A DNA stretch of 64,000 nt from Morinoia aosen (lineage: Eukaryota; Arthropoda; Malacostraca; Amphipoda; Talitridae). Below the pieces are notes generated by a model. It did no database searches, had not been told where the DNA came from, and saw nothing but the letters and a program-made list of their open reading frames with translations. The stretch spans positions 83,383,130-83,447,129 of the forward strand of contig CM059567.1 of NCBI GenBank assembly GCA_030386875.1. The letters run 5' to 3'. Positions 11,401-44,400 of the stretch are shown piece after piece (within the stretch, counting starts at the first letter, position 1; every line of letters begins with the position of its first letter). Made by a program: the position numbers and the translations under genes.

Positions 11401-14400
11401 TGTTTAAAAGATGCAAATACTGTGTAGAGGATGCAAATATTGTGGGTCTGATTCTTCATGCGTTTGTCTTTTGAGTTGTTGTGTATTGTAACTGATGTGT
11501 TCAAGTCCGCGGTCCACGAGTACCATTGCCGAAAGGCAGTATTTGTTGTTAGGGAAGTGAATTGGCTGGCCCATGTCAGGATTTAAGTGGTGTCATTATG
11601 GTTGCATACCGATTTGTATGGCGAGTTCTCTGCATAGCGATTGTGTAATAGGACATAATTGGAGCTAGTAAAGTTCGTGAAACATCCAAGAGAATCATAT
11701 CCCAAGTGGACTAGAGAACAGGCACTGCTGAAAGAGCTCAGGCTCGTGGCAGTGTATTGACACGTCTCCTGTGTTCATGTTTTACTCGTGTTAATTGCAT
11801 AATCATTTGTGGGGGTGTGCCTTTCCCCCATTCTCATGCTAATGTAAACTAACAAGGGGCTCAACGTCTCGTCACACTCTGCAGCAAGTGGTGGTGACAC
11901 TTACTGAAGAATAATGTAAGCCTACATAACAAGAACCCCATTTTCGTCCCTCACTACCTTGTATCCTGCTGTCACAACTTAATTATATAAAAATTACTGA
12001 TAAAAACTGAGCCGAAAAACTTTGAAAAACTATCCAAGCGACACGGAGCACAACTGAAGTTCAGAACAAATTTCTCGTCCTACAGAATTGACATTTGATG
12101 TCGTTAGTACAGCCATCATTAGCTACCGTCTAGGAATGCTTTAGTGAGAGCATTTTAAACCGATATCGATCATTCTGTTACCACAGTACTGATTAATACT
12201 AATACACTAACTAAAATCTCTGAATGACAGTCATTATTAACATCGAAACCATCTTAAAATTTTTGCCAGTTCAAATGCACGATAGAGTACATTGGTTGAT
12301 ACAAATAATACAACTGTCCATTACGGTGAATGAAATTACTTCGACAAATATCAATGCAGTAACACAGTCCAACTCTCAATAACAAATTGTACTACTTTTT
12401 TCACATCCTCAGCCAGTACGTGCTTCTGTTACATTGGGCACATGCTGCCATGATATTTCTGATTACACATAACACTGTATATTAAATTTGTCACGCAAGT
12501 TTTTTCTGTGCCTTCAACACTACAGCTGCTAAAACGCATAGAAGAACAGCTGCATATAACGCATGTTTTAAAAAATTTTCCCTATATTTCTCTCATTTAC
12601 AAGACGTCCAAAGAAAGTAAACTTTGATAGAGAGAAATTTGAAGCATGCACAGGCAAGGTTATGATTTGGAAGTTAGGACAAAAACCAACTATGTTGTTG
12701 CGAGGTGATTTTAAAAAAAAGGAATTAATTTCTAACAATTTGCAACGGCAGAACACAAGATAGATGCAGACGCCACGCAGAGCACACACGTCACACAGAA
12801 CCGACCCACAAGACAGTGAGCGCTAGAAGAAGAGGCTGACCTGCGTGTAGCAGCCGAGGTTCATGCAGCAGCGCACCATCCTCCTGATGGCGCGGTCGCC
12901 CACCAGCATCACAGTGAGGTCATCACCAGGGTCACTCCTGAGGTAGTTGGTGGCGATGAAGACGGCCGTGAGGTAGAGACACAGCGCGCTGTGGTACTCC
13001 TCGGTGCTGTAGCTCAAGTCCGCCGCCGTCACGTGCCACGAGGTGGCCGTCGCCTCGCTCACCTGTCGAGCAACACACCCGTCACCACACGCGAACGCAG
13101 CGAACTCCAGTCCACCATAGGGCAGCGGGCTGGCATCTCTTAGTTGTCGTCTCACGGTCAGAGTTGAGAACGAACAACTTTTTCTCACTACTAAATCATC
13201 CAATCGAACAAAATGTGTAGCAGTTCAACTGAGCAAAGGATTCTGAGCGAAATAAATGCATTGTGAATTGTACTCATGTGCAAGAACAGTTGAAAGTTTC
13301 AATATTTGGAAAGTAATTGAATGTCAAAACAAAAATAACCTTCGAACTAGTCAAAGAAAGAGCTTTGATATACTACTGGCACCATAGATTGATTAGATGC
13401 TTAGACCAATGACACTGACGAGAGCAAACTTACAAGCCGAGTTCGTCCACGGACTTGTTGGCTGCTGCTTTGCAAATTAAATGGGAAAACGAAAAAATAA
13501 AAACAAAATTGCTAAAAAACGCTGATGAGAATTACAACCACTGCAACTGAGCGAGTTGCACTTTGTGTAACCTTATCTTTGTGATTATCCCTGTCTCCTG
13601 AGGAGGTTAACTGGGAAAGCTACCAATGATGTGCACTGCCCTCCTCTCACTCGCCTCACAAGCCCCGGCAGTATTATCGTTGTTTTACCTTAGCATTTGC
13701 GCTGCCCTCAACATTATGGGTCTATCTCGTTTCATATAATATAAATATATATAGTAAAAATCAAAGTAAACTATGCTCGAAATTCAGTAAATGACTTAAG
13801 TTTTAAGATATAACATAAATGTTCATCCAGACATTTACTTTTCATGACATTTGCTAACGTCCCCTAAGGCACCACGACTATCAATTACCTAAGAAATTCA
13901 TGTAATTTTGCTGGATCATGGCATTTTCAAGAACCAGAAAGGAGGGAATTCAACCTGCAAGTTAGAGTCAAGAGGATTATAAGATTTCCATAAGGATTCG
14001 AGGTCCTGATTTGTATAAACGTAGCAAGCCAATAAGAAATTAGACAATACTGACGAGGCAGAGGCAGCAATACTGACGTGATCAGCGCCAGGGAAGTACT
14101 TGATGGCGTGCGCGACGACCGCCTCAAGCGTCTCCCGGACCGTGTTGAGGTCAGCCTCCTTGCAGAGTGGCAAGTTAAGCCAGAGGTGACTATGCTGCGT
14201 GTGTACCTCGGCCGAGGGCTCCCCCAGCAGCCTGTTGTACAGTGAGCCCAGCAGGGAGCACAGCAGGCTGAGGCATGTGGGCTCCTTGAGGCAGTACACC
14301 AGCTCAAGTAGCTCGGACAGCTGCAGAACCTCAGCTTGCCGCTCTGAAGATTTACTGCTAGTAGGCTTCCGATGAGAGCACGCAGCGTGATCTAAGATAG

Positions 14401-17400
14401 TGACCACTGACTCCCAGAGATGAACGAAGGGCGGCTCGGAGTGATGAGGACCTCCTGAGTCGAGGATGTGAGCAGCAGCCAGCAGAGGGCGCAGAATAGC
14501 CATAAGAGGCAGGTAGGGCTGCGGCAGCTGCAGCCCTGATAGGATGCTAGCAACCCCTTCCCAGTCCCGGGCGTTTACCAAACACATCATGCATCTGAAC
14601 AAACGAAAACAGCGTGTCAGGAAGGCAGGTAATTAAAAATGTTCCATGCATCTATATGATACAAGCCATTATTATATAAGAAAGTTTTAGCCTCCCTTAA
14701 CCACGACAAAGATGTTCCAAGAGAGGAAAGAGGAAGGCACCATTTAGTATGGAGTTGAGGGAACGCGGAATCTATGCACGAGGTGCACAGAAACAGTAAG
14801 CTAGGAAAGAAGTTCATGAAACAAGAAAAAAGTTGAAGAAGAAAGTAGTAGGTGCTGAAAAACAGGACAGCAGTGAACCGAAAAAAGATGGTCCGTAACA
14901 AAACAAAAACCTATTTTATTACAACAAAAAGGAAGCCTACCTAACCTTTAGCTCAGGCCCTCACATAGTCCCCCTGGGAGCGCCAATTCCCATAGATACA
15001 ATAGTTGTATCCCCCTGAGGGGATGATACAAGCCAATAGAAGCATTTGCACTATCACACAAAACTTTTAAAAACATGAAAGGGCTTCCTATTTAAAAACG
15101 CAAACCCACGCACTGTAAACGTGGTTATTCCTGACTGTCAGCTCCCAGGGATCTCACGCTCTTGCTACGTCTGTAGATCTAGTCTGATCTCGCGATCAGG
15201 CTGCTACTACACGTACATTACAAAACAAAAAATTGATAGTCTCTAATGACAATAGCCTGATTTAACGTTTCTAGGCTTCACGAATACTTAGGGATATGAG
15301 TAATGGTTTTCACAATGAAAGAATATTTAATTAACGTCAGCATGGTTTGCACAGTGTTTATAGTAGCACGATACACCATACTATTTGAAGAATAAAAAAT
15401 GATGGGAGCAGCTGAAGTATAGAAGATTAGATTAGATTATACTTAAGTTTAAACATCTCTAACCACAGAAAATGCATTCTGAAAAGAGGTAAGAGAAAAC
15501 CTCCATTTACTATGAAATTAATGGAAAGGGGGAATTTACCTACAAGTATGCTCCTGCATAGGCTTTTACGAACAGAAAGTTATACTGAAAGGAGCTAATA
15601 CAATGAGATATAAGTTGAAGAAAAGATGCTGGAAAAAAGGACATTAGTGAATCGAAAAAAGATGGCCTTTAACAAAACAAAAAATATTCTATTTCAATTA
15701 TAGAGAGGCCTACCGAACTATCAGTCCAGGGCCTGTCATCTTTCCCCTGGAGCGCTAAGGTACAATAATTGTCTCTCCTGAGCAGTAGTACAAATTTTAT
15801 TGTGTAAAGCAGAGTGCAAAATAGACTAAGAGTTGTTAAAGTCAAGAGGATTATAAAATTTCCATCAGGAATTGAGGTCCTGGTTAGTATTATAATTATA
15901 TCAGTTCACGCAAAAATCACATTTTCGATGATTAGACCCCAAATGATCCCAGTTTGGTGGCCATAAACCTTGAAGAATTGAGGACTTACACCAAAGAGGA
16001 GCGGAACAAAATTCCTTCGAAATGTTGTCAGGACCAAATAAAAAGCAAAATTAAAAAGCAAAACAAAAAGCACAAAAAACGTTCAATTAAGAGCTGTAAT
16101 TGCGGCTTGAGGAGATTCAACTATTTATTAAGAGCTATATTTGTAAGTGCCTAAACACATCTTTCACCCCCTATTTACTAAAATGTAAAATTATTCGCAT
16201 TCAATACACATTATGCTTTAGTTAATGAAATATTTTTTTATGTGTTATTGCTATAATATTATTAGTTTCATGGGTTATTGTATTTTACCAAGATAACAAA
16301 AAAAATTAAATTTCCCTCATATCCAAATACTTATTTCACCACACTGTAGATCAAAAGCGATTTCGAAAGATAAATACAGAAAGAAGCAATGAAGGAAGAA
16401 GAAGAAAAAGTAAAAAGAGAAAGCAGAAAGGCTTGAAAATTGAAAGAAGCAAAGTGGACACGCAAGATAGAAGTCACGAAGGCCTATCTATAGCTCAGAT
16501 AACGATCGATTTTAACTGAGTTTTAGCCTCCCTTTACCACGACAAAGATGTTCGAAGCGAGGAAGGATGATAGAACCATTTAGTATACAGTTAAGGGAAC
16601 AAAGAATTTATGCACAAAGGGTGTTCCCGCAAAGGATCCCGTGCGCATAGAAACAGTAAGATAAGAAGGACGTTTATGAAACAAGATAAAAGTTGAAGAA
16701 GAAAGTCAGAGGTGCTGTAAAACAGGACTGCAGTGAACCGAAAAAAGTTGGTCCTTAACAAAACAAAAACATTTCATTTCAACAAACAGAGGGCCTACTT
16801 AACTCTCAGCTCAGGACCTCACATTTTTCCCCCTGGCAGTGCTAATTCCCATAGATATAATTGTTGTGTCCCCCTGAGGAGAACAGCTCAGATAATTTGA
16901 GGTCAGAAATCAATTCATCATTTCCTAACATTTTACCTTTGACTATCAATGTTAGCTATACTTAGTATTTGGTGAATAATAATTAGGTTATATATATTGG
17001 CTACTCGCCCTACTCCAAGTCACTTTAAAAGTATAAAAGTATCCGTTGTACTTTTCCATCTACTTACAACTTTATATAATAAATACATTGTGTAAATGTA
17101 CGAGGAGTTCGCGAGACTCGAACTCAAGACTATAAATCACCGCGCTAGCACGCTATCGACCGCGCTATCGATCACCCTAAAAGATGGAAGATGTGATACA
17201 TTGTGATCATAACTCTCGATACATTGTGTAGTTGAGTACACTTCCTGTTAACTGGGTTAATTTATAATGAAAGTTTAGTTCTTTCCCCAAATTTATTCGG
17301 TGTTATGAATTCTGCTGTCCAAAAAATACACGGATGAAAAACTATCTTCCATGTCAAATACACTGAAAAGTATAATCCTGCTTCAAAATTGAAATTGAAA

Positions 17401-26400: not shown

Positions 26401-29400
26401 CACCTCAAGGCAAATGAGAGGAACACTAAAAAGTACAAACCTTCAAATAATGTATTTAATTGAGTTAATGAAATTCGAGATAGTAGAAGGCACCTGAAAA
26501 CGGAATTTACAAAATCTTACCAACCAAAAATTTCTTCCTTATCCCTCGTTTAGTGGATGCAACGTGAAGGGACTTCAAGCTGTTTCGTGATTAAAAATGA
26601 AAGGGCCATTCCTATCACTTTGTCCGTGTCATTAATATAATCACCACCATCCAATTACAAACGCAAAGCTCCGCGATGCCTGGACTGCCCCGTAGCGGGC
26701 GAGGCCTCAGCTCCAGCATAATTCTAGTTCTAATTCTACTTCTACTTCTACCACTAGATGCGATATTAAAAAAGCGCAGGAAAAATGGAACATTAAAGGA
26801 TAAAATCATTATGAAATAATAATGTAGCTATGTGTTTGAGAAAACCATCACAATGGTCAATGTGGTGGTACTTGAAGTGCGAAAGCTTACCAAGTACAAA
26901 CACACTAGAAGGTAAATGGTAGTTAAAAGCCAAAATTTTGAGGCCATTAAAAAGTAGCGAGTACACATATTTGGTAGAGAATGAACGATGACAAGAAACC
27001 TGCTCAAGAAGGAGGATCTGTGAGCATTGAACACTGTGCCTGCAATGAGGTAAGATCCCCACAACGGGCTATAAACGCAACTTTATGCGATGCACAATTT
27101 CTCTGTCTGGCGCTACATAACACAAAAAACTAGAAATTTTAGAGCAACTTCTGTTTTTCCAGGAAATAAAATGAGAAATAGCAAAAAACGGTAACCAATA
27201 GGAAAATCCTCACGGTATTGAGCATCAAATACCTTTGAAAACCACTCAATGTACAGGGCACCTTTAGGTACACAAGAGTGTACTGAGGACCAGCCAGCAC
27301 ACACAGGACCAGCCAGCACCACACGGCACACACAGGACCAGCTAGCACCACACGGCACACACAGGACCAGCCAGCACCACACGGCACACACAGGACCAGC
27401 CAGTACCACACGGCACACACAGGACCAGCCAGCAGCACACGGCACACACAGGACCAGCTAGCACCACACGGCACACACAGGACCAGCCAGTACCACACGG
27501 CACACACAGAACCAGCCAGCACCACACGGCACACACAGGACCAGCTAGCACCACACGGCACACACAGGACCAGCTAGCACCACACGGCACACACAGGACC
27601 AGCCAGTACCACACGGCACATACAGGACCAGCCAGCACCACACGGCACACACAGGACCTGCCAGCACCACACGGCACACACAGGACCAGCCAGCACCACA
27701 GGGGACACACAGGGCCTGCCAGCACCACACGGCACACACAGGGCCTGCCAGCACCACACGGCATACACAGAACCTGCCAGCATCACACGGCACACACAGG
27801 ACCAGCCAGCACCACAGGGGACACACAGAACCTGCAAGCACCACACGGCACACACAGGACCTGCCAGCACCACACGGCACACAGAGGACCTGCCAGCACC
27901 ACGCGGCACACACATGACCAGCCAGCCCCACAGGGGACACAAGGGACCAGCCAGCACCACACAGCACACACAGGACCTGCCAGCACCACACGGCACACAC
28001 AGGACCTGCCAGCACCACACGGCACACACAGGACCAGACAGCACCACACGGCACACACAGGACCAGCCAGCACCACACGGCACACACAGGACCAGCCAGC
28101 ACCACACGGCACACACAGGACCAGCCAGCACCACACGGCACACACAGGACCAGCCAGCACCACACGGCACACACAGGACCAGCCAGCACCACACGGCACA
28201 CACAGGACCAGCCAGCACCACACGGCACACACAGGACCTGCCAGCACCACACGGCACACACAGGACCTGCCAGCACCACACGGCACACACAGGACCAGCC
28301 AGCACCACACGGCACATACAGGACCAGCCAGCACCACGCGGCACACACAGGACCAGCCAGCACCACACGGCATACACAGGACCTGCCAGGACCACACGGC
28401 ATACACAGGACCTGCCAGCATTACACGGCACACACAGGACCAGCCAGCACCACAGGGGACACAAAGGACCTGCCAGCACCACACGGCACACACAGGGCCT
28501 GCCAGCACCACACGGCATACACAGAACCTGCCAGCACCACACGGCACACACAGGATCAGCCAGCACCACAGGGGACACACAGAACCTGCAAGCACCACAC
28601 GGCACACACAGGACCTGCCAGCACCACACGGCACACAGAGGACCTGCCAGCACCACACGGCACACACAGGACCAGCCAGCACCACAGGGGACACAAGGGA
28701 CCGGCCAGCACCACAGGGGACACAAGGGACCGGCCAGCACCACACGGCACACACAGGACCAGCCAGCACCACACGGCACACACAGGACCAGCCAGCACCA
28801 CACCGCACACACAGGACCAGCCAGCACCACACGGCACACACAGGACCAGCCAGCACCACACGGCACACACAGGACCAGCTAGCACCACACCGCACACACA
28901 GGACCAGCCAGCACCACACGGCACACACAGGACCAGCCAGCACCACACGGCACACACAGGACCAGCCAGCACCACACCGCACACACAGGACCAGCCAGCA
29001 CCACACGGCACACACAGGACCAGCCAGCACCACACGGCACACACAGGACCAGCCAGCACCACACGGCACACACAGGACCAGCCAGCACCACACCGCACAC
29101 ACAGGACCAGCCAGCACCACACGGCACACACAGGACCAGCCAGCACCACACGGCACACACAGGACCAGCCAGCACCACACGGCACACACAGGACCAGCCA
29201 GCACCACACGGCACATACAGGACCAGCCAGCACCACACGGCACACACAGGAACAGCCAGCAGCACGCGGCACACACAGGACCAGCCAGCACCACACAGCA
29301 CACACAGGACCTGCCAGCACCACACGGCACACACAGGACCTGCCAGCACCACACGGCACACACAGGACCAGCCAGCGCCACACGGCACACACAGGACCAG

Positions 29401-32400
29401 CCAGCACCACACGGCACACACAGGAACAGCCAGCAGCACGCGGCCCACACAGGACCAGCCAGCACCACAGGGGACACACAGGACCTGCCAGCACCACACG
29501 GCACACACAGGACCAGCCAGCACCACACGGCACACACAGGACCAGCCAGCACCACACGGCACACACAGGACCAGCCAGCACCACACAGCACACACAGGGC
29601 CTGCCAGCACCACACGGCACACACAGGACCAGCCAGCACCACACGGCACACACAGAACCAGCCAGCACCACACGGTACACACAGGACCAGCCAGCACCAC
29701 ACGGCACACACAGGACCTGCCAGCACCACACAAGACCAGCCAGCACCGCACGGCACACACAGGACCAGCCAGCACCACACAGCACACACAGGACCTGCCA
29801 GCATCACACGGCACACACAGGACCTACCAGCACCACACGGCACACACAGGACCAGCCAGCACCACACGGCACATACAGGACCAGCCAGCACCACACGGCA
29901 CACACAGGACCAGCCAGCACCACGCGGCACACACAGGACCAGCCAGCACCACAGGGGACACACAGGACCAGCCGCACCACAGGGGACACACAGGCCAGCA
30001 CCTGGAAGAAGAGCCCCTGCGTGGTGGTGTGGGGCGGTGCAGCCATCAGGTCCACCTGGAGCTTGTGGCGCAGGTAGCGGGGCAGCGTGTGGCTCAGGTC
30101 GTCTTCTCCAAGCACTTCCAGCACCCCCTGCTCACAGCACTGCCTTAATGACACTTAACCACAGCCTCTGGACCCTATATAATGTCACTAACATAAACTC
30201 ATCAAAATTAGATACTAAACAGATGAAATTCATCATGTGATAAAGTATGAAGAAATTCATTCAACATTTCTCTATTAGAAGACTCAATCATTAAAATGTA
30301 ATCCCTCAGAAGTTTGTAAAACGCAACGTTTCACTGTACAAACATCCTCAGACTGAAAATATACAGAAAAATTGTTGTCACTTTGGTAAAATGTAAATCT
30401 AATTCTTAAGCTACACGAGACTCAGTATGACAGGTGAAATCACAGCACAAAAATATTTTATAAATGAGTGAAGATAAAATTTGATGTACATTTAATATCT
30501 ATTCATCAGGTCATCACGGTCTAAATCATGGGCGCGTTTTAAAGAAATAGAGCATAGAGACAGGAATTTTGATATATTAAGCAATGATAGAACAAAATTT
30601 TGGTGAAAGTTGAGAAACGCTACTTGAGGGCTTGCACTAGTTTGTAAGGAGGCTCTTGTGTTCATTGAAATGATTGGCTTGACAAAATCAAACTTGACTT
30701 TTTGTTGACATTGCATTCAATAGATTTTTCCTGCACGATAAATTATGCATGCACTAAATTCAAGGCAATATTTTGAAGTCCGATACAAGGCAACAAGAAA
30801 AATTTAAGCCGATCTGTTTAAGAAAGTCAGAAATCTTCAGTACGAACTAAACAGAGAACATCACGCAGTGGTCAAAGACTTTTGAAACTTTTAAATCAGG
30901 TAGTTGGGACCACACCATGCACATAGCAGGACACAACACAACCAGGGATGGAAAAAACCCAGGGTTTTTTAAAAAAACCCAACCCACCTGGGTCTTTTTG
31001 GGTTAAATTGGGTTTTATGGGTTTTATTGGGTTTTTTTGGGCTTTATTGGTTTTTTTGTAATACCTGTTTTTGTAAAAGAGTTATTCACACAACTCCCGT
31101 TGCCCCTATTTCAGATTTATGTACATACACTTATTGAGTAAATATTGTTATTTGATTACTTTATTTCCAACATTATATTACATTATTATATGAATTATTA
31201 CATTATATGAACAATATATGAATTAAGTTTGTCCATCACAATTACCCTTTACCAATTACCATATGCATAGAGACATAGCTCTGCAGTCTGTAAAGATATA
31301 AGATGTCCAAAGAGAATTGCTATGCTCGTCAATTCATAGTAAGTTGTTTTAGCAGCAGACAGGCGCAAGTCATGTGAGAGGGAAGCACCATGCAGATCAT
31401 AAGTAACCACCACAAGCAACTTGAAGCAAGACAGCTGCACATCACTTAACAGGCATGCTGTTAACAACTTAACATGTATATTGTGTGAGCTGGAGTGCTA
31501 AGCAGCGCAAGTCAAGTCAGTCAACCACACTGTTACATGTTACAACATGTAGTGACATGCCAAATTTTTTTTAGACTTGCCAAAAAATTCACTTTTCGCA
31601 GTACAGGATAGCAACAAACACTAAAATGATTAGAAGTAAATGCTCTAACAGATTTCATCATCAAATTTGTTCCAGTGCAGCTTGAATGCTCTCCATAGGC
31701 CAGTAGTTTCTTTACTTTCTCACCCCATGGTGGCTGCGGTTGTCTTGTTCCACCTGACTATAATTGTTAGACTTATTTCAATCTGAACAATTTATTTACC
31801 ACAGGTGATACAGAGGTAGAATGTTTCTTAAGTCTAATACAATGGTCAAATTTGAGCATAGCTACTTATGGGCCCGAATAAGTTCAGCGACTTCTAGGGC
31901 ATCCTACCATTACATTATTCTAGGGTGTACAATAATGTTTAACCTAATTCACTTAGCCTAGTTTCACATTAGACTAATCAACAAGATAATGAACTCGATA
32001 TTGATGTTTCATTTTACAACATTTAAGGCAAAGCTCTCACAGGAGACTGATATTGAAGAGTGGTTGGCTGAGTACAATCCGGAGTTCATCAGTGTGCTTT
32101 ACTCCTATAAATTGAAGGACTCCAACATCTTCCCAAAACACATGTTCAATGAGAATATCACTAAGACAATGACTCCTTGTTGATGGTGGGATATTCAAGA
32201 CATGAAACAGCAGAAAATGCAGATTCATGAAAAAACACTGGCAGAGGGTTTCTGCAAGTTTATAAGAAATCTTCATTCTTGCCCCGCAAGTTCAGGAACC
32301 ATTGAGAGAATTTTCTCATCATTTGGAATTGTGTGGAATAAATTGAGAAATAGATTAGGATCAGAACGCGCACAGAAATCATCTCAGTATATCGCCACCT

Positions 32401-35400
32401 CACAAATGATCATGATGTGGATAACAACGATGAAATGGCAGTAGATGTAGAAAGAGAAACACAGTAGTATTGAAGTAGCAGTCTAGTCTAGAAGACAGGA
32501 AAAATTCAGAAGTCTCTATATTAAGTAATCAAACTGCATTTGTTTCTAAATTTTTGTTTTTTTACTTTGGAAATGGAATTCATAAAAATATATTAGTCCC
32601 TCGAGATTTTGTGATTAAGGTATTTCTAATTTGATTTGTATAGGGTTGGTGTTTTGTTTTTCAACGTTTTCTTGTCATGGTCATGCACATGACTTAGATA
32701 CTTATTTTGACAAGATAAATATTTAGCTCATTTTGATTCTATAAGCTTGAAAACAAATAAAATTTACATAACAGTAATAAAACCCAGAAAAACCCAAAAA
32801 AAAACACTACTTAGTGGGTTTTTAGTGTGGGTTTTTTTGGGTTGGTTTTTTATGTGCCAACCCTGAACACAACACCTGGTAGCTGGGACCACACCATGCA
32901 CCTAGCCAGACACAACACCTGGTAGCTGGGACCACACCATGCACCTGGCAAGACACAACACAACACCTGGTAGTTGGGACCACACCATGCACCTAGCCAG
33001 ACACAAAACACCTGGTAGCTGGGACCACACCATGCACCAGACAGGACACAACACAACACCTGGTAGTTGGGGGCGATGGAGGTGGCGTGCATGAAGCGGT
33101 CCAGCAAAGGGCGCTGCGGGACGGGTGTGCTGCGGCCACAGATGGCGCTGCAGGAGCTGGTGTATGCCTGCAACGCGGTGCGCTGCACGCTGCAGTACTC
33201 TGCAGCGTGCAGCCTGATATTAGTGGGGCTCATTCTACAGCGTGCAGTCTGCCATCAGTGGTGCACACTCTGTAGCATGCTGCCTGCTATTAGTGGCCCA
33301 CAACAGCAGCAGACAGGCTAATCACAAACAACTCCAGCAGCACAGCCTTGCTAGACACGAACGTACCAATCAACAACAAACTCCACACCATGTCTCAATG
33401 AATTATCTTACCAACTGGGCATTCTTGCATTGAAATATTCAGCAGGTTTATACGTGTAACAGTCTAAAAACAAGAAATAAAAATAGTTTTATTAAAAAAT
33501 TCCATTCATATTTTAGAAGGACCACAGAATTATGCAAATCAATGATTCATTAACCAAGAGAATGTGTCATCAAAATAGAGAAATAGAAGTTCAACAGACC
33601 GGTAGCACTGAAAGTAATAGCTACACAGAACGAGTTAAGTTAACTGACGTAACGGTTGAGGGAACACATACGAGTACATAGGATGCTCATGATGCCACAG
33701 CTCTTCAACCGTAAAAAATACCATAACTAACTACAATAAATTCAAATAGATTTAATCGTTTGTGTACCAAAACACTAACAGTTTAAGAAAAAGTTTTTAG
33801 GAATAAATGTGGTCAGTACCCTGAAATATCAGTGAAATTTTCCAAGGACATGTTTGTTATTTCACAACAGCAGATACTTACTTCCTTTTCTTAACTAAAA
33901 AAATATCTTGTTTCTTTAAAATGTATATGCTTAGCGAGACGAATCTTAGTCACCAGAAGAAGGAAAAAAAATCTAAGAAAAAATTATCAATTAAGCTTTC
34001 GCCTAACCTTATCAGTAAACTAACGTACGCATGAAAAAACGTGCTCAAGTTAAATAAAAAAGGTATTAGATATGTTACACAGACCATGAAGCTTAAACTT
34101 AGCAGAAATTAATAGCAAACTGCACATACAAAGCTTCTGTAATCTCTCAAAACATAGCTGCTTGAATGCTATTAATTACCCTAATTTTGTCATTTAGTTC
34201 AAAACATTTCCCTACATGTTAAATTACCTTCTTCATCAGTCTCAATCGTGAAATAAGCACCCTTTCATTTTGTAATTCACTTTTTAAGTTAGAATGAATA
34301 AAAATGAAGAGTGGAAAAGATGAGACGAAACCTGTACATGATGCTGACGATGCTGAATGTGCACATATAAATAACAGTCTTGAAAATCCAGCTTTACAGA
34401 GAAATGTATGCCCTCAACATATGCTTACCAAAGTATAATCATTTGTTCACAATGACCGAAAAAAATCATCCAATCACATTATCAAATAAATAAATTATGT
34501 AATTATATCAACATAGTTTGCCTTATTGGAGACTGGTGGTAGCAGATACCAAATATCCTTTGGAAGGATTCCTAAAAGAACAGAATCCAATCAAAAAACA
34601 AGGAGTGGTAACAAGCAATACGATGTTGCGGTTAGATTGAAAAACCATCAAAATAGAAACATCACAGTACCAGTCATATGCAAACAAGCCAAAATTTTTA
34701 CCTGAATTTCTACACATTAAACAGTATTGCATTTACTGGGGATGGGGAATTTATTACAAAGTTTATCATATTTTCATTCCTAATATAAGAAATAGAGCTT
34801 CCAAAAATTGTATAAAATTCTCTGATCACGTGTAGATAAACTGTAACAAATCGGAGCAGTGACTTCAACCAAAGAATAGACCATGACGTCCAGAAGAGGA
34901 GCACTAACGCGGGTTGGCAGGGAGGTCCGCATAGAGCGCGGTGGCCTGCGTGAAGTGGTGGAAGGAGTCGTTGTAGTGCTCCGCCACGAAGTGGAACAGG
35001 CCTAAGTCGTAGTGCACCTGCAAAATGACGGTGTATGTCATTCCGTGATAGGTGAACACTCGGGGGTGATGCCATAAATAAAATTCCTTGGCTCTTCCCT
35101 ACAATTGGTGCAGGTGGCAGACCAGTCTGACACGCTGCACCTAGCAAGAGGTTTCTAAATCTAGCCATGTTAGCAACAGGCGTCGGACTCTTCCTGTCAT
35201 GTGGGAGCTCTATGAAAATACACAAGCATAAAGAAATCCACTATCGCTAAAACAGTCACACTTAATAATTAGTTAATTAAATCAATCAGATTTTTGAAAA
35301 TTGAAACTCAAAAGTCATTTTAATACCAAATTTTCAATACAATAAGTCCTTCGAAAATTAGACACATGACATTCAAAAATGGAAAAGTAATGCAAAAAAT

Positions 35401-38400
35401 TTCTAACAAGATCTCACGTGGACAATATTTTATTTTGACTTGGCTATTCCAGGTAAGACAATGAATTACATTTCTAAAGTACATTATATCTAATTTTGAA
35501 ACCATGATTAAACGTGCATCTGGATACAAAATTGCGAGTTTTTTTCGAAACACCTCCACACACGATAGATCATTCAAAGTAAAGCACGCGCAGGACCGCG
35601 AATAAGATTAATCATAAGAAGGGGAGCACTTTGCCCGAGTTTGACCTCTCACCTGACACTTGAACTGGTCCAGAGGGACTTCAGGGAGCCCCGAGAAGTT
35701 GTGTGTGGAGCCCTTGGGCGCGCCAGGCCCGGGCACCACCAGAGAGAAGCTCGTCGCCGTGGGGGCGCACACCTGCACGGAGCAGGACGCTACTCTCAGG
35801 TCATCTTCTCCACTCACGTAGCATGGCTACTTTTGCAGTAGGTGCTATGGCCACATGTGTGCCGGTCTTAATAACTAGCACTGCAGGTCGATGTCATTTT
35901 ACGGAGTAGGAATGATTATCTTGTTTTTGCGTTGTATCTGCTACGTGTAGTAAACTCAATATTACTACAGAAACTGAATAATTAGATTTGACCAATAAGA
36001 AAGAGCTTCAGCAGTAGTCAAGTAGGACGCAATACAAAGAAAGCTCAAATCCGTTAAAGTGAGGAAAATCATGGCATGATCATGCTACAAAAATGGGTAA
36101 GCATGAACCATCTCAAGACAAAATCATCTTGAACTAGTTGGGAGCTCTCTGCCCAATTTCCCAGCCCTACACAACTTGCTCAGATAGAGCTTAAAGAATA
36201 CATGAAATATAATGTGCTTGGAAAAGATTTCAAAGGTGTTGCACATTGAGATATGAAACACTACATATTTTCATCTTTTTCTCAAATAAACCTTAAGAAC
36301 TTAGATCATAAAAATAAATTCAAGCCCGAGCAGAAAATTAGTACTCAGAACGATCGCATTTGGTCTGGCAAGAAACAGTGAGGGATTGCGAGATGTCAGA
36401 AAATAATCAGGTCCCTGTTACTTAGTGGGTTGAGAAACAGGGTGTTCTAAGTCTATGTTTGGCTGAACTTTATTCTGAAATTTGGCTAAATTAATTTCAA
36501 GGGGTTCCAATCATTACGGTAAAACTGTGCTGAGAAGCACTCGAAAATTAACTGTGATACACCAAGAAAGAACCAGCACCTCGTTAGGGAGCAAGAAAAT
36601 TCGAGGTTCCAAGCAGCTAACTTAACCTTTTTTCAGAGACCAAACTCACGTCTCTATTTTCTCCGGACTTGAGGCTTGTACACTGCTGCATTTCGTTTTT
36701 CAGGGAAGCAATGTCCCAACAACTCATTATTTATTGCGAACTCAAGATAAACGCATGAAACAATGAACCAAAATTCCCAAAATGAGTCATGGCATATGCA
36801 CTGCACGTCAGCAAGTAACAACGTTCAAGAAAGGCAATTTATCGACCAGCTACATAAATTAATTCTTTCAAATTAACAATCATTTTTAGTTATTCAAGAT
36901 AATAAGGGACAAAACCTAAGCAACTGCACACGAATGATAGCTAAAAGGAAAAATCATTCGGTAATGTTAGCTTATTGCACAGAATTGCTTTAGATTCAGA
37001 GGAGAAATTCGTAAAGTTTAGTCAGAATGTAAAATGTTGTGTTTAAATTACGAGTTTGTTCTCTTCATTTCAATCAATTATTTATTATTATTTTGGTTGA
37101 TGGGAATAAGCACAAAACGCTCGAAATTTGATTTCTTACTTCACAAGTTCCGTCTGAAACTCAACAAAATTCAGAACCACTTTGGTAAATGATTTTTATA
37201 AACAGCATATAATACATTTTTCACAGAATACAGTCGTCCACACAGTTTTGTGTGGACGACTATAACACAGGACGACTATAACAATTATTATATTACCAGA
37301 ACAGAGTTTAGCAAAGCAATGACACTGTAAAGAGTAGTTTTCATAGTGAAGATTCATACATGGCAGTAAACATGCACATACTTTTATATATTTTAAATTT
37401 ATCATGTATGCCATTACTACAAAAGCACTCTTATTCTATCCTGAAATTTTCATTCATCCATGAACGATCCTCCGCACAAATGGATGCTTGGAAGACTCAG
37501 GGTTTCCTTTTTCAAATGCTAGTAAAAGTGAAAAGCATTCGCTACATTCAAACCCCCGCTTTTCATCAGACCACCAGGCAAATCCATCCTTCCTAGGTCT
37601 TAGGACATTTCCTTACACCTGTAATCCTCGTCAAATCTAGGCTCGTTGTCTCCATGTACATTTTCTGCTCAAATAAATCAAATCCAGCAACACCTGACAA
37701 ACCTACTTTAAGTACTGGTGACTTTTGTCAGCTTTTTTATCAGTGTTTATACTTGTAAATTTCTCAAAGCATTGTGAAATGCATCTATACTCTATAGGAA
37801 AAATTTGAATCTGTTTCACGGTGTTGCAAGTTTCAGAATTCTTCAAAAAGTTCCTGGTAATGGTTTGAGACGTCTGAAATTTCTACAACCAAAAGCTAAA
37901 ATTAACTCGAGAGATGTTCAAGTAAAAAGGAATCCCTCTCCCTGTACTGTAAGTGGACCTCCTCCGCTTGGTGCGGTGGTAATGATACAAATTTTCCTTT
38001 TTGTATAGAAATGAAAAATCATAAGACATGATAGACTAATTTAATCAGTACTTAGTGCCTAGCAATAAAAGGAATATATTCTCGAGAGGTTCTACTTATA
38101 TTTTCTTCCAAAAAATCCTAAACATTCAGAATAATTTTGTTTTACTGTATGTTGCGGCAAAAATGACAATCTATTACTCATAGCACACTTACTACAATTG
38201 GTGAAATTCTCAATTTTTTAGTGAATTTGAAAAACCAAGAAAACTTACAGAGGGGCCATCACTTTTATCTGCTATTTCACAATCTGTCATGTGATGGGAA
38301 AAACGATATACGAGTTCCAAAAAGAACAAAATTAACTTCACGGAACCCTTCAGTTACAACAGCTGTCAATAAGCAACACAAAAATGAAAACCGTCTCGTT

Positions 38401-41400
38401 ATATTAAATATCGGAACACAGGAAGAAGTATATGGAATTTTAACAAAAGAGTGCAAGCAAAAAGACACAGAGACACAAGTGCAAACGGTGCCCCAGGTGC
38501 GGAGGGCAGCAGCACGAGGGCGAGCACACACCTGCGAGGCGCCCACCACCAGCGTGTCCAGGATGCGCGCCGCGAAGTCTGCCTTCGCCGCCAGCTCCGC
38601 CAGCAGCGCCTCACGGTCCTCCCTGTAGTCTGATGTGTTGCTGTCGCTGGGGCTGCAGGCGGGTTGCTGTCAATGTGTGTGGTGCAGCCAGCATGCAGTG
38701 CAGCCAGCATGCGGTGCAGCCAGCATGCGGTGCAGCCAGCATGCGGTGCAGCCAGCATGCAGTGCAGCCAGCATGCGGTGCAGCCAGCATGCAGTGCAGC
38801 CAGCATGCGGTGCAGCCAGCATGCGGTGCAGCCAGCATGCAGTGCAGCCAGCATGCGGTGCAGCCAGCATGCAGTGCAGCCAGCATGCAGTGCAGCCAGC
38901 ATGCAGTGCAGCCAGCATGCGTTGCAGCCAGCATGCGTTGCAGCCAGCATGCGTTGCAGCCAGCATGCGGTGCAGCCAGCATGCGTTGCAGCCAGCACGC
39001 GGTGCAGCCAGCACGCGGTGCAGCCAGCACGCGGTGCAGCCTGCACGCGGTGCAGCCAGCACGCGGTGCAGCCAGCACGCGGTGCAGCCAGCACGCGGTG
39101 CAGCCAGCACGCGGTGCAGCCAGCACGCGGTGCAGCCAGCACGCGGTGCAGCCAGCACGCGGTGCAGCCAGCACGCGGTGCAGCCAGCACGCGGTGCAGC
39201 CAGCACGCGGTGCAGCCAGCACGCGGTGCAGCCAGCACGCGGTGCAGCCAGCACGCGGTGCAGCCAGCACGCGGTGCAGCCAGCACGCGGTGCAGCCAGC
39301 ACGCGGTGCAGCCAGCACGCGGTGCAGCCAGCACGCGGTGCAGCCAGCATGTGGTGCAGCCAGCATGCGGTGCAGCCAGCATGCGGTGCAGCCAGCATGC
39401 GGTGCAGCCAGCATGCGGTGCAGCCAGCATGCGGTGCAGCCAGCATGCGGTGCAGCCTGCATGCGGTGCAGCCAGCATGCGGTGCAGCCAGCATGCGGTG
39501 CAGCCAGCATGCGGTGCAGCCAGCATGCGGTGCAGCCAGCATGCGATGCAGGCAGTGCAGCCAGTGCAGCCAGCATGCGAAGCAGCCAGCATGCGGTGCA
39601 GCCAGCATGCGGTGCAGCCAGCATGCGGTGCAGCCAGCATGCGGTGCAGCCAGCATGCGGTGCAGCCAGCATGCGGTGCAGCCAGCATGCGGTGCAGCCA
39701 GCATGCGGTGCAGCCAGCATGCGATGCAGGCAGTGCAGCCAGCATGCGATGCAGGCAGTGCAGCCAGCATGCGATGCAGGCAGTACAGCCAGCATGCGAT
39801 GCAGGCAGTGCAGCCAGCATGCGATGCAGGCAGTGCAGCCAGCATGCGATGCAGGCAGTGCAGCCAGCATGTGGTGCAGCCAGCATGTGGTGCAGCCAGC
39901 ATGTGGTGCAGCCAGCATGTGGTGCAGCCAGCATGTGGTGCAGCCAGCATGTGGTGCAGCCAGCATGTGGTGCAGTCAGCATGCAGTGCAGCCAGCATGC
40001 TGTGCAGTGCAGCCAGCATGTGGTGCACCCAACATGTCATGCAGTCAGCATGTGGAGCTAGTCACGAAGTATTTGAACAACCACACACTCCCACTTCCAA
40101 AAATCTGACAAGGGCCTCCTTATCTAGCTAGGAGCTGCAAATCTCGATGCAAGTTGCAGGACAGTGCCCACACACCAGACATATGACGGCTCAACTGCGC
40201 CTTGTATGAACGGTAATTTTTGTTGAATAACGTTAGCTGCACTATAGAATTGGTGGAACCAAGTATATGATATAGTACAAATAACCCTTACTACACCAAT
40301 ATCACTCTTAAAAGACATTATAAACAATGAACATCTTCATGTTCTTAATCTTTGTTGGAAAGTTTACACGTTATGAGCGATAACTTACATCGCTCTCAAG
40401 AAATCTAACTTGGTAATCAAAGAATTAGGCCATCGCCACACACCACTTTGACAAGGTAGAGAAAAAACGAGGCATAATGATGTTGCTTAGCAGAAGACCG
40501 TCACCAAGAGTTCAGCGGATATCATAACAAATATGAGAACTGTGACAAGCAGCAGGTAGAACTAACACTCATATTTGATGAAGCTTGAGGTCGTAGTGGA
40601 TTTTAACCTTTCAATGAGCACCTGATCTCAAAACAGGCAATAATCAGAATAACCTCACTTCTTAAACCAAAATTAGTACATCAAACATAGCATACTTGTA
40701 CCACAGCATTCATTACTGCACCGCCACTGTAATTGATCTGCTGTGCTGTAAGATATCTCTGATGCAGTGGACAGCAGGGCTTCAACAGCAGCATTTGCCG
40801 ACACTGCAGAGCCACAACAACACATGATGCACACCCACAACAGCACATGCTGCACAGCCACAACAGCACATGCTGGACAGACACAACAGCACATGCTGCA
40901 CAGCCACAACAGCACATGCTGCACAGCCACAACAGCACATGCTGCACAGCCACAACAGCACATGCTGCACAGCCACAACAGCACATGCTGCGAAGCCACA
41001 TCAGCACATGCTGCACAGCAACAACAGCACATGCTGCACAGCCACAACAGCACATGCTGCAATGCAACAACAGCACATACCACACAGCAACAACAGCACA
41101 TACCACACAGTCCCAACACACGCCACAGATTAGATTAGATAGATCATTAGTTAGTTTCAGCCTCCCTATCCGCAACAAAGGCTATCCAAAGAGAGGAAGG
41201 AAGAAGGCATCATTTAGTATGGAGTTAAGGAAACGCGGAATCTATGCAAAAAGGGCACAGAAGCAGAAAGCTAAGAAAGAAGATCATGAAACAAGAAAAA
41301 TTTGAAGAAGAAAGTAGTAGGAGCTGAAAAACAGGACAGCAGTGAACCGAAAAAAGATGGTCCGTAACAAAACAAAAACCTATGTTATTTTAACAAAAAG

Positions 41401-44400
41401 AGAGCCTACCTAACCTTTAGCTCGGGCTCTAACATAGTTCCCCTGGGAGCGCTAATTTCCATAGATACAGTAGTTGCATCCCCCTGAGGGGTAACACACG
41501 CCACACAGCCCCAACAACAACGAGGCGCCACCCACAGCGTGAAGGACGAGGCGCGGTGCTGCGGCGGGCGCGGCACGCGGGAGGCCACCACGGCGGCCAG
41601 CACGTAGCGGAAGTACACGCTGGCAGCCATCACCTGGTGGCAGTTGAGGGCATATAAAGAAGGGCAAGATGAATATTGTTCTACTTGAAAGGAGTAGTGC
41701 GCTTGCCCAAGCAGATAGAATTTCATTTTCAATAGAAAACGAGCATATTATAAGAAGAGAATGAGGGTTCGGATGTTCTCCTTACTAAATGAATCATACA
41801 TAGGTTGTTCACAAAAAAGGCAAGCATTACATTATCCAGTTTTCAAACAAACAATTCAAGAAATAATAAACTTGCAATCAACGCATTGAAGTTCTGTGTT
41901 TATAAGGGATACTTGGTAAATTCTGAGTGCACAGCCCGACCTGATGAGGGAGGAACGTGGCGAGGTCCACAGAGCAGGAGGTGGGCGTGAGGTCTGCAGC
42001 CACCGGGCCCAGGCACTCCGCCATCAGGCAGTTGAGGAGGGCGTCACAGATGTCCAGTGGCACTCTGCACACACAGCCTCATCACTGACATGCAGTGCCT
42101 CCCTCAGTAGTCATATGTGATAACTTTTATATCCACTGGCCCTCTGTACACACAGCCTCATCACTGACATGCAGTGCCTCCCTCAGTAGTCATATGTGAT
42201 AACTTTTATATCCACTGGCACTCTGCACACACAGCCTCATCACTGATGTGCAATACTAGCTGTCTTTCTCAATAGTCTTATGTGATAACTTTTATTGGTC
42301 AACAGGTGACTAAATTTGGTTCAATGATAAAAATGGAACTGGAACTATTCATATGAGTACTCGCTAGTGATGCAAAAACACGGTTTAATTTCATGGCAGT
42401 TTTTTTTAAACTGTTTTTTTGGGGCGATTTTTTTTTGCACACATCCAAATTTGTTAAGTAAATAACAACCAGACATAGTAGAGATAGTAAGCTCTAAATT
42501 TTGACTCCATCAATCTAAATTATGTGGCTCCTGCTGTTTCTCTTAGACTTCTCTAGGTAATTGTGGATTATCCGCCACCACTTTTAATGTATGGTTTCCT
42601 TTTGATATTAAGGTAAGGTTAAGGGGGACAACCCAGCGATTTTCAATTTTTTGCCCATTGTTCTGAAAATTGCACATTATATGTGTTTTTAAAAAGGAAC
42701 ACATTTTGCTCATGTAACTTTATCGATTTTGGCCTTAGTTTTTGAGAGTTTTCATGCAAATAACAACAAAATAAACAACTCAGTTTTACCAAATCTCTTC
42801 CAATATAAATTCAAGACACTACATCAAATTGGCAGAAAACTCTTATTTATGACCACCAGTAGATATATTATTACAATACACCATTTGGGAAGTTGAAGGT
42901 GGTGCATTTGCATTGTAAAATAAATGAAATATCAAAACATGAAATAACAGAAAATGACAAATGTCCTACAACAATGGAAAATCATGAATTAAAGGGTATG
43001 CTGTTTTATTCAACAATCTGACATGGAAACATTTTGATGTAGTTTTTTCCTTGCTTAGTTATTTTAAAACAAAATATTAGAAAAAAAATATATACATGTT
43101 TTCTAGTCATGATTTTTTGTAAACATGTTTTAAAAAAAACAGTATTTATTTTTTTGGTTAAATCTCTATCTATGACTATCAGTAAAAATATGTTATTAAA
43201 ACCTCTTTTGGGGAATTGAAGGTGATTCACCTGCATTGTAAAATAAATGAAATATCATGACAAGAAACCACAGAAAATGAAAAATGTCCTACAACCATAG
43301 AAAACCATGAATTAAGGGGTACGCTGTTTTGTTTTATTATCTGACATGGAAATTATTGTAATGTGGTTCTTTTCCTTGCTGAGTTATTTTAAAACCAAAT
43401 ATTAAAAAATATATATCCACTTTTTTTAGTTTTTTTGCTGTAAAAAACATGTTTTTAATATAAAAAACAGCATGTTTTATTTTGAGTCACATCTGTAGTG
43501 TGCACACAAATTTTTTCCCAATGCTTGGTAACTTGATATCAGGCAATGTAAACTCAAATAAAGCCCTTCATTGTTTCCTTCATAAATATTTTTTTATAGA
43601 TCTTTACAAGGAATCCTATTATAGATCTGATTCCTTCAATTGATTTGATAGGAGCTATCAGGTTGTATCACATGAAGTGCTACATTTGAAAACAAAAGAA
43701 AATAATAGTCATAAAGTGTTTAACAAAATCTGATCCTTCTGTATGACCTTTACCCAACGCTTTTCTGAAGCATATATTCTATCTTCAAAGAAGTAATCAT
43801 TTCCACAAATAAAGTCTTCAAAGCTTTGACTATATTTCTTCATTTAATAGGGCTTCATCGCACATTTAAATTTCGAAATATTTGAACAAATGATACTCAA
43901 TAGAATAGAATTAAGAGAATAGGAAAGATGTGGTACAATTTCATAATTCAGACTTTGCAGCTTGTCGATCGAAGCGCTAGAGGAGTAAGGTCGTGCATTG
44001 TTGCTAAGCAAAATTGGTTCATCTCTATTCACCAGTCTTGGATGCTTCTTTAACTTTTCTTGCATGCAATTAATGTTTTGACAGCAAGATGCTGCTGTTA
44101 AACTATCACATTGTTGTAAAAATTTAGCATGAATAATTGAGTCCCTTTACAGACCACTAAACAGTGACCAGTCAACATATTTGATTGTCAACATCTCAGA
44201 ATAGGAATAGTAATTTCCAATAAAAATTCTGCCTGATATTAAAGATGGGGTTTATTCACAGTTAATTAAATGTGACAACTCCTAAAAGATACCCTGATAC
44301 AACCAAGGCATAGCCAAGTACAAAGAATCAAAAATAATTATGAAGTCAACACCTGCTTCTGGAGGGCTACCAATGCAGAAATTAAAAAGGCTAATCTAAT

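Follow-up and report, generated by a model that had tools for sequence, protein, structure and literature searches.

The DNA analysed here is a stretch of 64,000 nucleotides of Morinoia aosen (GenBank assembly GCA_030386875.1, contig CM059567.1, positions 83,383,130 to 83,447,129 of the forward strand), which we call the window and to which plain coordinates below refer. The gene in the window is INTS8, encoded on the minus strand, and six minisatellite arrays lie at or beyond the borders of its modelled exons. Tandem units that copy the neighbouring splice junction are present in this gene and in several unrelated genes of the same genome, at both donors and acceptors. The identity of the gene rests on exons downstream of the arrays, including an open frame at 13919..14632 (minus strand) that matches Pfam PF25756 (E=4.3e-31) and Integrator complex subunit 8 in PDB 7cun_H (E=6.7e-6). 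When eight open frames were compared with the Pfam family TPR_INTS8, three scored above the cut-off, two matched weakly and three, including exons 4 and 5 of the model, gave no match; a PDB search with the exons adjoining the arrays returned no usable match. Exons 4 to 10 are predicted from open frames, base composition and AG/GT signals, and their numbering is that of the sequence-only reading that preceded this analysis. Exon 4 (41941..42064, without homology support), exon 5 (41532..41633, with a possible alternative donor about 4 bases upstream), exon 6 (38532..38652) and exon 10 (30002..30127) are modelled as GC-rich open frames with AG/GT borders, and exon 9 (33060..33195) has been placed by reading the sequence, its acceptor being ambiguous; all are on the minus strand.

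Five arrays had been noticed at exon edges in the sequence-only reading, and Tandem Repeats Finder (TRF) recovered all five and added one more, next to the acceptor of exon 9, that was absent from the earlier list; between 10 and 42.3 kb of the window no further TRF row with a score of at least 100 was found. All six are given on the minus strand, and copying of an exon end was judged by ranking the array's own nearest junction against 237 others. Two arrays span their junctions and have exon-end copies within the top 1% by this test. The array at the exon 4 acceptor (79 bp x 2.5, 42053..42246) has units that read GTGTGCAG/AGTGCCAGTGGA, where the slash marks the junction, and the true acceptor reads GTGTGCAG/AGTGCCACTGGA. 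The array at the exon 9 donor (about 46 bp, 32866..33071, reported by TRF as rows of 43, 48 and 93 bp) has units carrying CCCARCTACCAG/GTGTT, which copies the donor and the 12 exonic bases before it. Each of these two arrays extends 12 bases into its exon, so that neither ends where the coding sequence begins. The array at the exon 10 donor (29 bp x 93.6 with 92% matches, 27297..29999) starts 2 bases from the donor, and many of its units contain the first eight intron bases, GTGCTGGC; the exon end itself is not repeated (rank 136/237). The exon 9 acceptor array (35 bp x 2.9, 33197..33296) lies about 2 bases from the acceptor and the exon 6 acceptor array (16 bp x 84.9, 38681..40052) ends 28 bases before the acceptor of exon 6, and neither is a copy by the rank test (ranks 55/237 and 36/237, respectively). 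In the array of the intron after exon 5 (23 bp x 13, 40804..41101), an exon-end copy was not detected. From exon 10 to exon 4, the distances between array and junction are 2, 0, 2, 28, 430, and 0 bases; for five of the six arrays the modelled junction is thus no more than 30 bases away, a result reached in 0 of 200,000 random placements.

Insertions are present inside two of these arrays. One at about 41127..41492, which we read as a short interspersed nuclear element (SINE) and which is flanked by 12-base target-site duplications at 41115-41126 and 41493-41504, parts the exon 5 donor array from its donor, and similar sequence (CCCCTCAGGGGGATACAAC) occurs in two other retrieved loci, L061 and L020. 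The SINE is included in the gap of 430 bases mentioned above; without it and one copy of the target site, the array found by TRF begins about 50 bases past the donor, with degenerate units nearer to it. The second insertion, at 30943..32865 in the exon 9 donor array, has CAGGG...CCCTG ends and an 8-base target-site duplication, GTTGTGTT. We take this element to be hAT-like, and a distal remnant of the array was read beyond it at 30890..30942 (minus strand).

Positions 6869-64000 of the window recur on the same contig and in the same orientation 2.5 Mb away (G000:C12:80856100-80926099, loci L009-L015, where G000 is the assembly and C12 the contig), with 99.45% identity over 48,458 and 99.86% over 8,769 aligned bases. 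The 149 mismatches of the main alignment of 48,458 bases are concentrated below 25 kb. Both copies hold the same six arrays, five of them identical, and the 16-bp array before exon 6 shows 5 mismatches and a length difference of exactly one unit (16 bases), so that array length differs in one of six between copies that are either haplotypes or a segmental duplication. We read the duplicated locus as uncollapsed haplotypes or recent duplications; further near-identical pairs appear in the hit lists for contigs C1, C18 and C22. A locus found twice, with other such pairs elsewhere, is what uncollapsed haplotypes would give, and one may ask whether the arrays, or the second copy, are products of misassembly. 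This seems very improbable to us, since units within arrays diverge (by about 8% in the 29-bp array), elements with target-site duplications lie within arrays, and unrelated genes share the same structure. A separate observation on the assembly concerns contig C27, where GroEL-like matches that lack introns, six of them near full length and two split, were found at about 56.8-71.8 Mb; within the 80 loci retained, one of them has 63-69% identity to bacterial GroEL, mostly from Alphaproteobacteria, and it seems that bacterial sequence was scaffolded into the assembly here.

For comparison with other genes, the following sequences were sampled from the genome (1.99 Gb in 29 contigs): 30 loci with myosin exons and their flanks, six CCT gene regions, one more myosin gene and, as a late addition, six exons from one CCT gene on C16. 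Those named CCT6, CCT4, CCT5 and CCT2 were named from PDB matches, and the CCT genes on C4 and C16 are taken by us to be CCT3 and CCT8, respectively. Counting 18 regions from a comparison of exon edges, together with the myosin gene on C11 and the CCT gene on C16, 20 gene regions were covered, and by reading, 11 of them, INTS8 included, have junction copies. The rank test backs five of the 11 at the top 1% level (INTS8 and the genes on C1, C2, C11, and C17) and CCT2 at the top 5%; CCT4, with two copies, and CCT8 were outside the test, and for CCT5 the ranking used the nearest junction alone, the source of the array being a different one. The readings for C19, CCT2 and CCT3 are the weaker ones among the 11.

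At donors, besides INTS8 exon 9, the C17 myosin gene has an array (62 bp x 4.3, 99%) in which each full unit consists of 43 exonic bases and GTAAGT, with CAG/GTAAGT present in four units. Units of the 42-bp donor array of the C11 myosin gene contain ...TACTTCTACCTCAACCAG/GTTAGT or close variants, with CAG or CAA before GTTAGT in most. Donor arrays are also present in the C2 myosin gene (62 bp x 24), CCT2 (29 bp x 33), CCT4 (106 bp x 2), and CCT5 (59 bp x 18); the units of the last resemble the end of exon 1, which is now 2.7 kb distant, and therefore arrays can become displaced. At acceptors, besides INTS8 exon 4, the muscle myosin heavy chain gene Mhc on C1 has an array of 38 bp x 4.8 whose unit is the acceptor and the exon start, the C11 myosin gene has arrays of 76, 61, and 64 bp, and CCT3 has a junction-copying array according to a reading of its acceptor tract. 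Two of the six CCT8 exons, which were retrieved last, have junction duplications: one has four tandem acceptors, with GCAG in four units and the real acceptor last, and in the other the acceptor is duplicated together with the exon start. A 36-bp array of the C19 myosin gene was predicted before retrieval to reach an exon, and this held: it stops 106 bases short of an acceptor with a similar sequence. The CCT region on C5 (L049 and L050, with seven exon matches) gave no TRF row. Exon-edge arrays are thus found in further genes, namely myosin and CCT genes. The view of the sequence-only reading that the units are unrelated and that one array did not spread also holds, because units differ between junctions and copies match their own junction, and this makes the births of the arrays independent.

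Two side observations were made on the myosin loci. In Mhc on C1, six tandem matches to one segment of the myosin head (about 376-436 of PF00063) lie at G000:C1:35644596-35648320, as expected for mutually exclusive exons, and downstream of a 20-bp myosin array on C9 a tRNA-like sequence was seen by eye (L059, about 985-1066). The Mhc sequence scores 258 bits against a tarantula chain, 235-247 against insect chains, and at most 190 against the vertebrate and mollusc chains listed (best 60 of 76 matches), and by this sequence comparison the host is an arthropod.

Statistics were calculated for 37 arrays (score of at least 80, at least 2.4 copies, period of at least 12) in 207,628 bases that contain 238 modelled junctions; arrays wholly within an exon were left out. 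For the exon models, INTS8 exons were taken from reading, one added exon inside the C17 array was removed, the C19 exon was added manually, and two automatic acceptors (one in C11 and one in CCT5) were corrected, the remaining automatic junctions having been checked by eye only in part. In the exon-end rank test, the junction nearest to the array ranks in the top 1% for six of the 37 arrays, against 0.37 expected (7/37 before the two acceptors were corrected), and the numbers are 4/30 without INTS8 and 3/21 without INTS8 and C11. A rougher comparison of edges, which includes 2-copy repeats, gave 10 of 37 arrays for which an exon edge of the own gene beats those of all other genes; two INTS8 matches in it, to non-neighbouring exons, are treated as composition. 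Taking these results together with the individual arrays, we consider it probable that the arrays are splice-junction-seeded minisatellites of the type called mirages in amphioxus, born independently and presumably tolerated through splicing.

How far splice junctions attract such arrays is a different matter, and here the sample speaks on both sides. Array formation may be equal everywhere, those arrays that touch coding sequence persisting where splicing hides them; INTS8 would then be an extreme cluster and exon borders would not be special, a view that is compatible with the mirage reading. It is at odds with the INTS8 placements given above, with the junction duplications in the exons retrieved last, and with the full sample, in which 13 of 37 arrays have a junction no more than 20 bases away, where chance would give 4.43 (p=0.00025, the floor of 4,000 placements). 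This excess near splice sites, which the sequence-only reading had suggested looking for, persists without INTS8 (9/30 against 4.13 expected, p=0.0085), but without INTS8 and C11 it is no longer significant (5/21 against 3.38, p=0.21; within 100 bases, 9/21 against 6.10, p=0.09). The last result within 20 bases is one of several that count against seeding at junctions. With exon models from hidden Markov models (HMM) only, a permutation gave 7/31 arrays within 60 bases against 5.40 expected (p=0.28), and intronic array coverage does not increase near junctions, being 0.049 at 0-25 bases and 0.152 at 800-1600 bases, so that coverage in mid-intron is no lower. In C11 and the CCT genes many arrays lie in mid-intron, and the absence of arrays from the middle of introns, noted earlier for INTS8, is not a general rule. 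Four arrays were picked for similarity to the 29-bp array, and by eye none of the three with flanks was at an exon edge, exon-like frames being a few hundred bases away in one of the similarity-chosen arrays (L053). To these are added four of the six arrays of INTS8, at the donors of exons 5 and 10 and the acceptors of exons 6 and 9, which have no exon-end copy by the rank test; CCT3 and C19, which have none by the same test and rest on a reading of the acceptor tract; and the 20-bp array of the C9 myosin gene, for which the prediction made for C19 failed, no exon being seen in the following 1.5 kb. In a genome-wide pattern search, tandem donor motifs were matched 1477 times and the reversed motif 964 times; clustered arrays and one dispersed family stand out among the matches listed. 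Formation at equal rates is in our opinion quite possible, if somewhat short of probable. The dispersed tandem family, with a unit of about 40 bp and a consensus donor in each (CAGGTAAGTGTGGAGCAGCGTGGAAGTCGAGCGCCTCCAG), has many of its listed matches on C1 and C2.

Base composition bears on the cause proposed in the sequence-only reading, in which GC-rich exon borders seed tandem duplication through replication or R-loop stress and selection keeps it from passing the coding edge. The 15 junction-adjacent arrays have GC contents from 0.31 to 0.67, and their median is higher than that of the others (0.48, n=15, vs 0.37, n=22; Mann-Whitney p=0.0023), as such a seed would give; however, this is expected in any case if the units hold exon sequence. 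Since donors and acceptors are both affected and some arrays are AT-rich (the 95-bp array of C2, CCT3, and CCT2 have GC of 0.31-0.34), GC-richness is not required. A donor-specific R-loop cause gains nothing, because acceptors are affected about as often as donors, and a limit set by selection at the coding edge does not fit units that often start within the exon and carry the splice site. We therefore regard this explanation as improbable. Thus, while independent births and the recurrence in other genes are supported, the GC seed, the selection at the coding edge and a strong generality are not.

Because both borders are hit, GC varies, and units often start in exons, we favor tandem duplication over the junction followed by expansion into the intron. 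A short segment of the exon border, often straddling the junction, would be duplicated in tandem. At a donor the seed would comprise a few to 43 exonic bases and the donor itself, and at an acceptor it would comprise the acceptor tract and the start of the exon. Slippage or unequal exchange could then expand the array into the intron, and it would be tolerated because the exon-proximal splice site and the entire exon stay and the extra copies are removable with the intron. Separate junctions would be affected independently, and transposons inserted later may move some arrays from their source exon. A stronger proposal, that splice junctions are hotspots of tandem duplication in this lineage, with a process active on donors and acceptors genome-wide and a sizeable share of genes carrying tandem, sometimes identical, sites of which only the exon-proximal one is used, appears rather doubtful to us. 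Near-identical arrays of donors or acceptors with the same exon flank, such as the four CAG/GTAAGT of the C17 myosin gene, may serve as natural experiments on site choice by the spliceosome. In the C11 myosin gene the 42-base units keep an open frame for the most part, with a stop in one of them, and use of a distal donor there could add a repeated peptide.

No published report of junction-spanning minisatellites in arthropods was found in the literature searched, which consisted mostly of non-subscription papers. Outside arthropods, tandem duplication has been discussed as a model of intron gain in two papers (PMC4974935, PMC2809761), the first of which describes extra splice sites supplied in this way in potato RdRp and by 24-bp AGGT repeats in fission yeast. 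Those cases concern new introns, whereas in the present genes the junctions that are duplicated already existed and intron gain is not shown. In the present genes, tandem units would supply extra donor sites, as in the human gene IFI6. A minisatellite with multiple splice donor sites in IFI6 (6-16) was reportedly described by Turri et al. in 1995. According to PMC4526556, the human minisatellite has multiple donor sites and downstream repeat units are used as donors; unlike the present case of many genes, it is there a single gene, with reported use of the downstream donors.

The closest system is that of the amphioxus mirages, described in PMC3087553 as minisatellite-like tandem duplications over exon-intron boundaries, at 5' or 3' borders, in Adh3 and the globins BflGb6 and BflGb9, and noted also for TnC and PGBD5 in PMC3902484. 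According to the former, Adh3 has units of 10-72 bp and the globins have units of 150-160 bp, many but not all units hold AG/GT, and splicing is undisturbed, with length instability that is haplotypic or somatic. As in amphioxus, units here span the exon-intron boundary (INTS8 exons 4 and 9, C17, C11, C2 and Mhc by rank; CCT4, CCT3 and CCT8 by reading), arrays are found at both 5' and 3' splice borders, and many units keep AG/GT signals (C17, C11, and CCT8). Set beside the haplotypic or somatic instability of the amphioxus arrays is the one INTS8 array in six that differs between the copies of the locus, by one unit. Unlike the mirages, which concern a handful of lancelet genes, the present arrays are in an arthropod and were read in more than half of the gene regions sampled. 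All cases called mirages in the available parts of these sources are from lancelet, and an arthropod host is outside that range, which is a difference of host and not of a structural requirement. We have accordingly filed the present arrays as the kind already published for amphioxus, now in an arthropod, and if the same structure holds in many sampled genes of one arthropod, mirages would not be a lancelet oddity.

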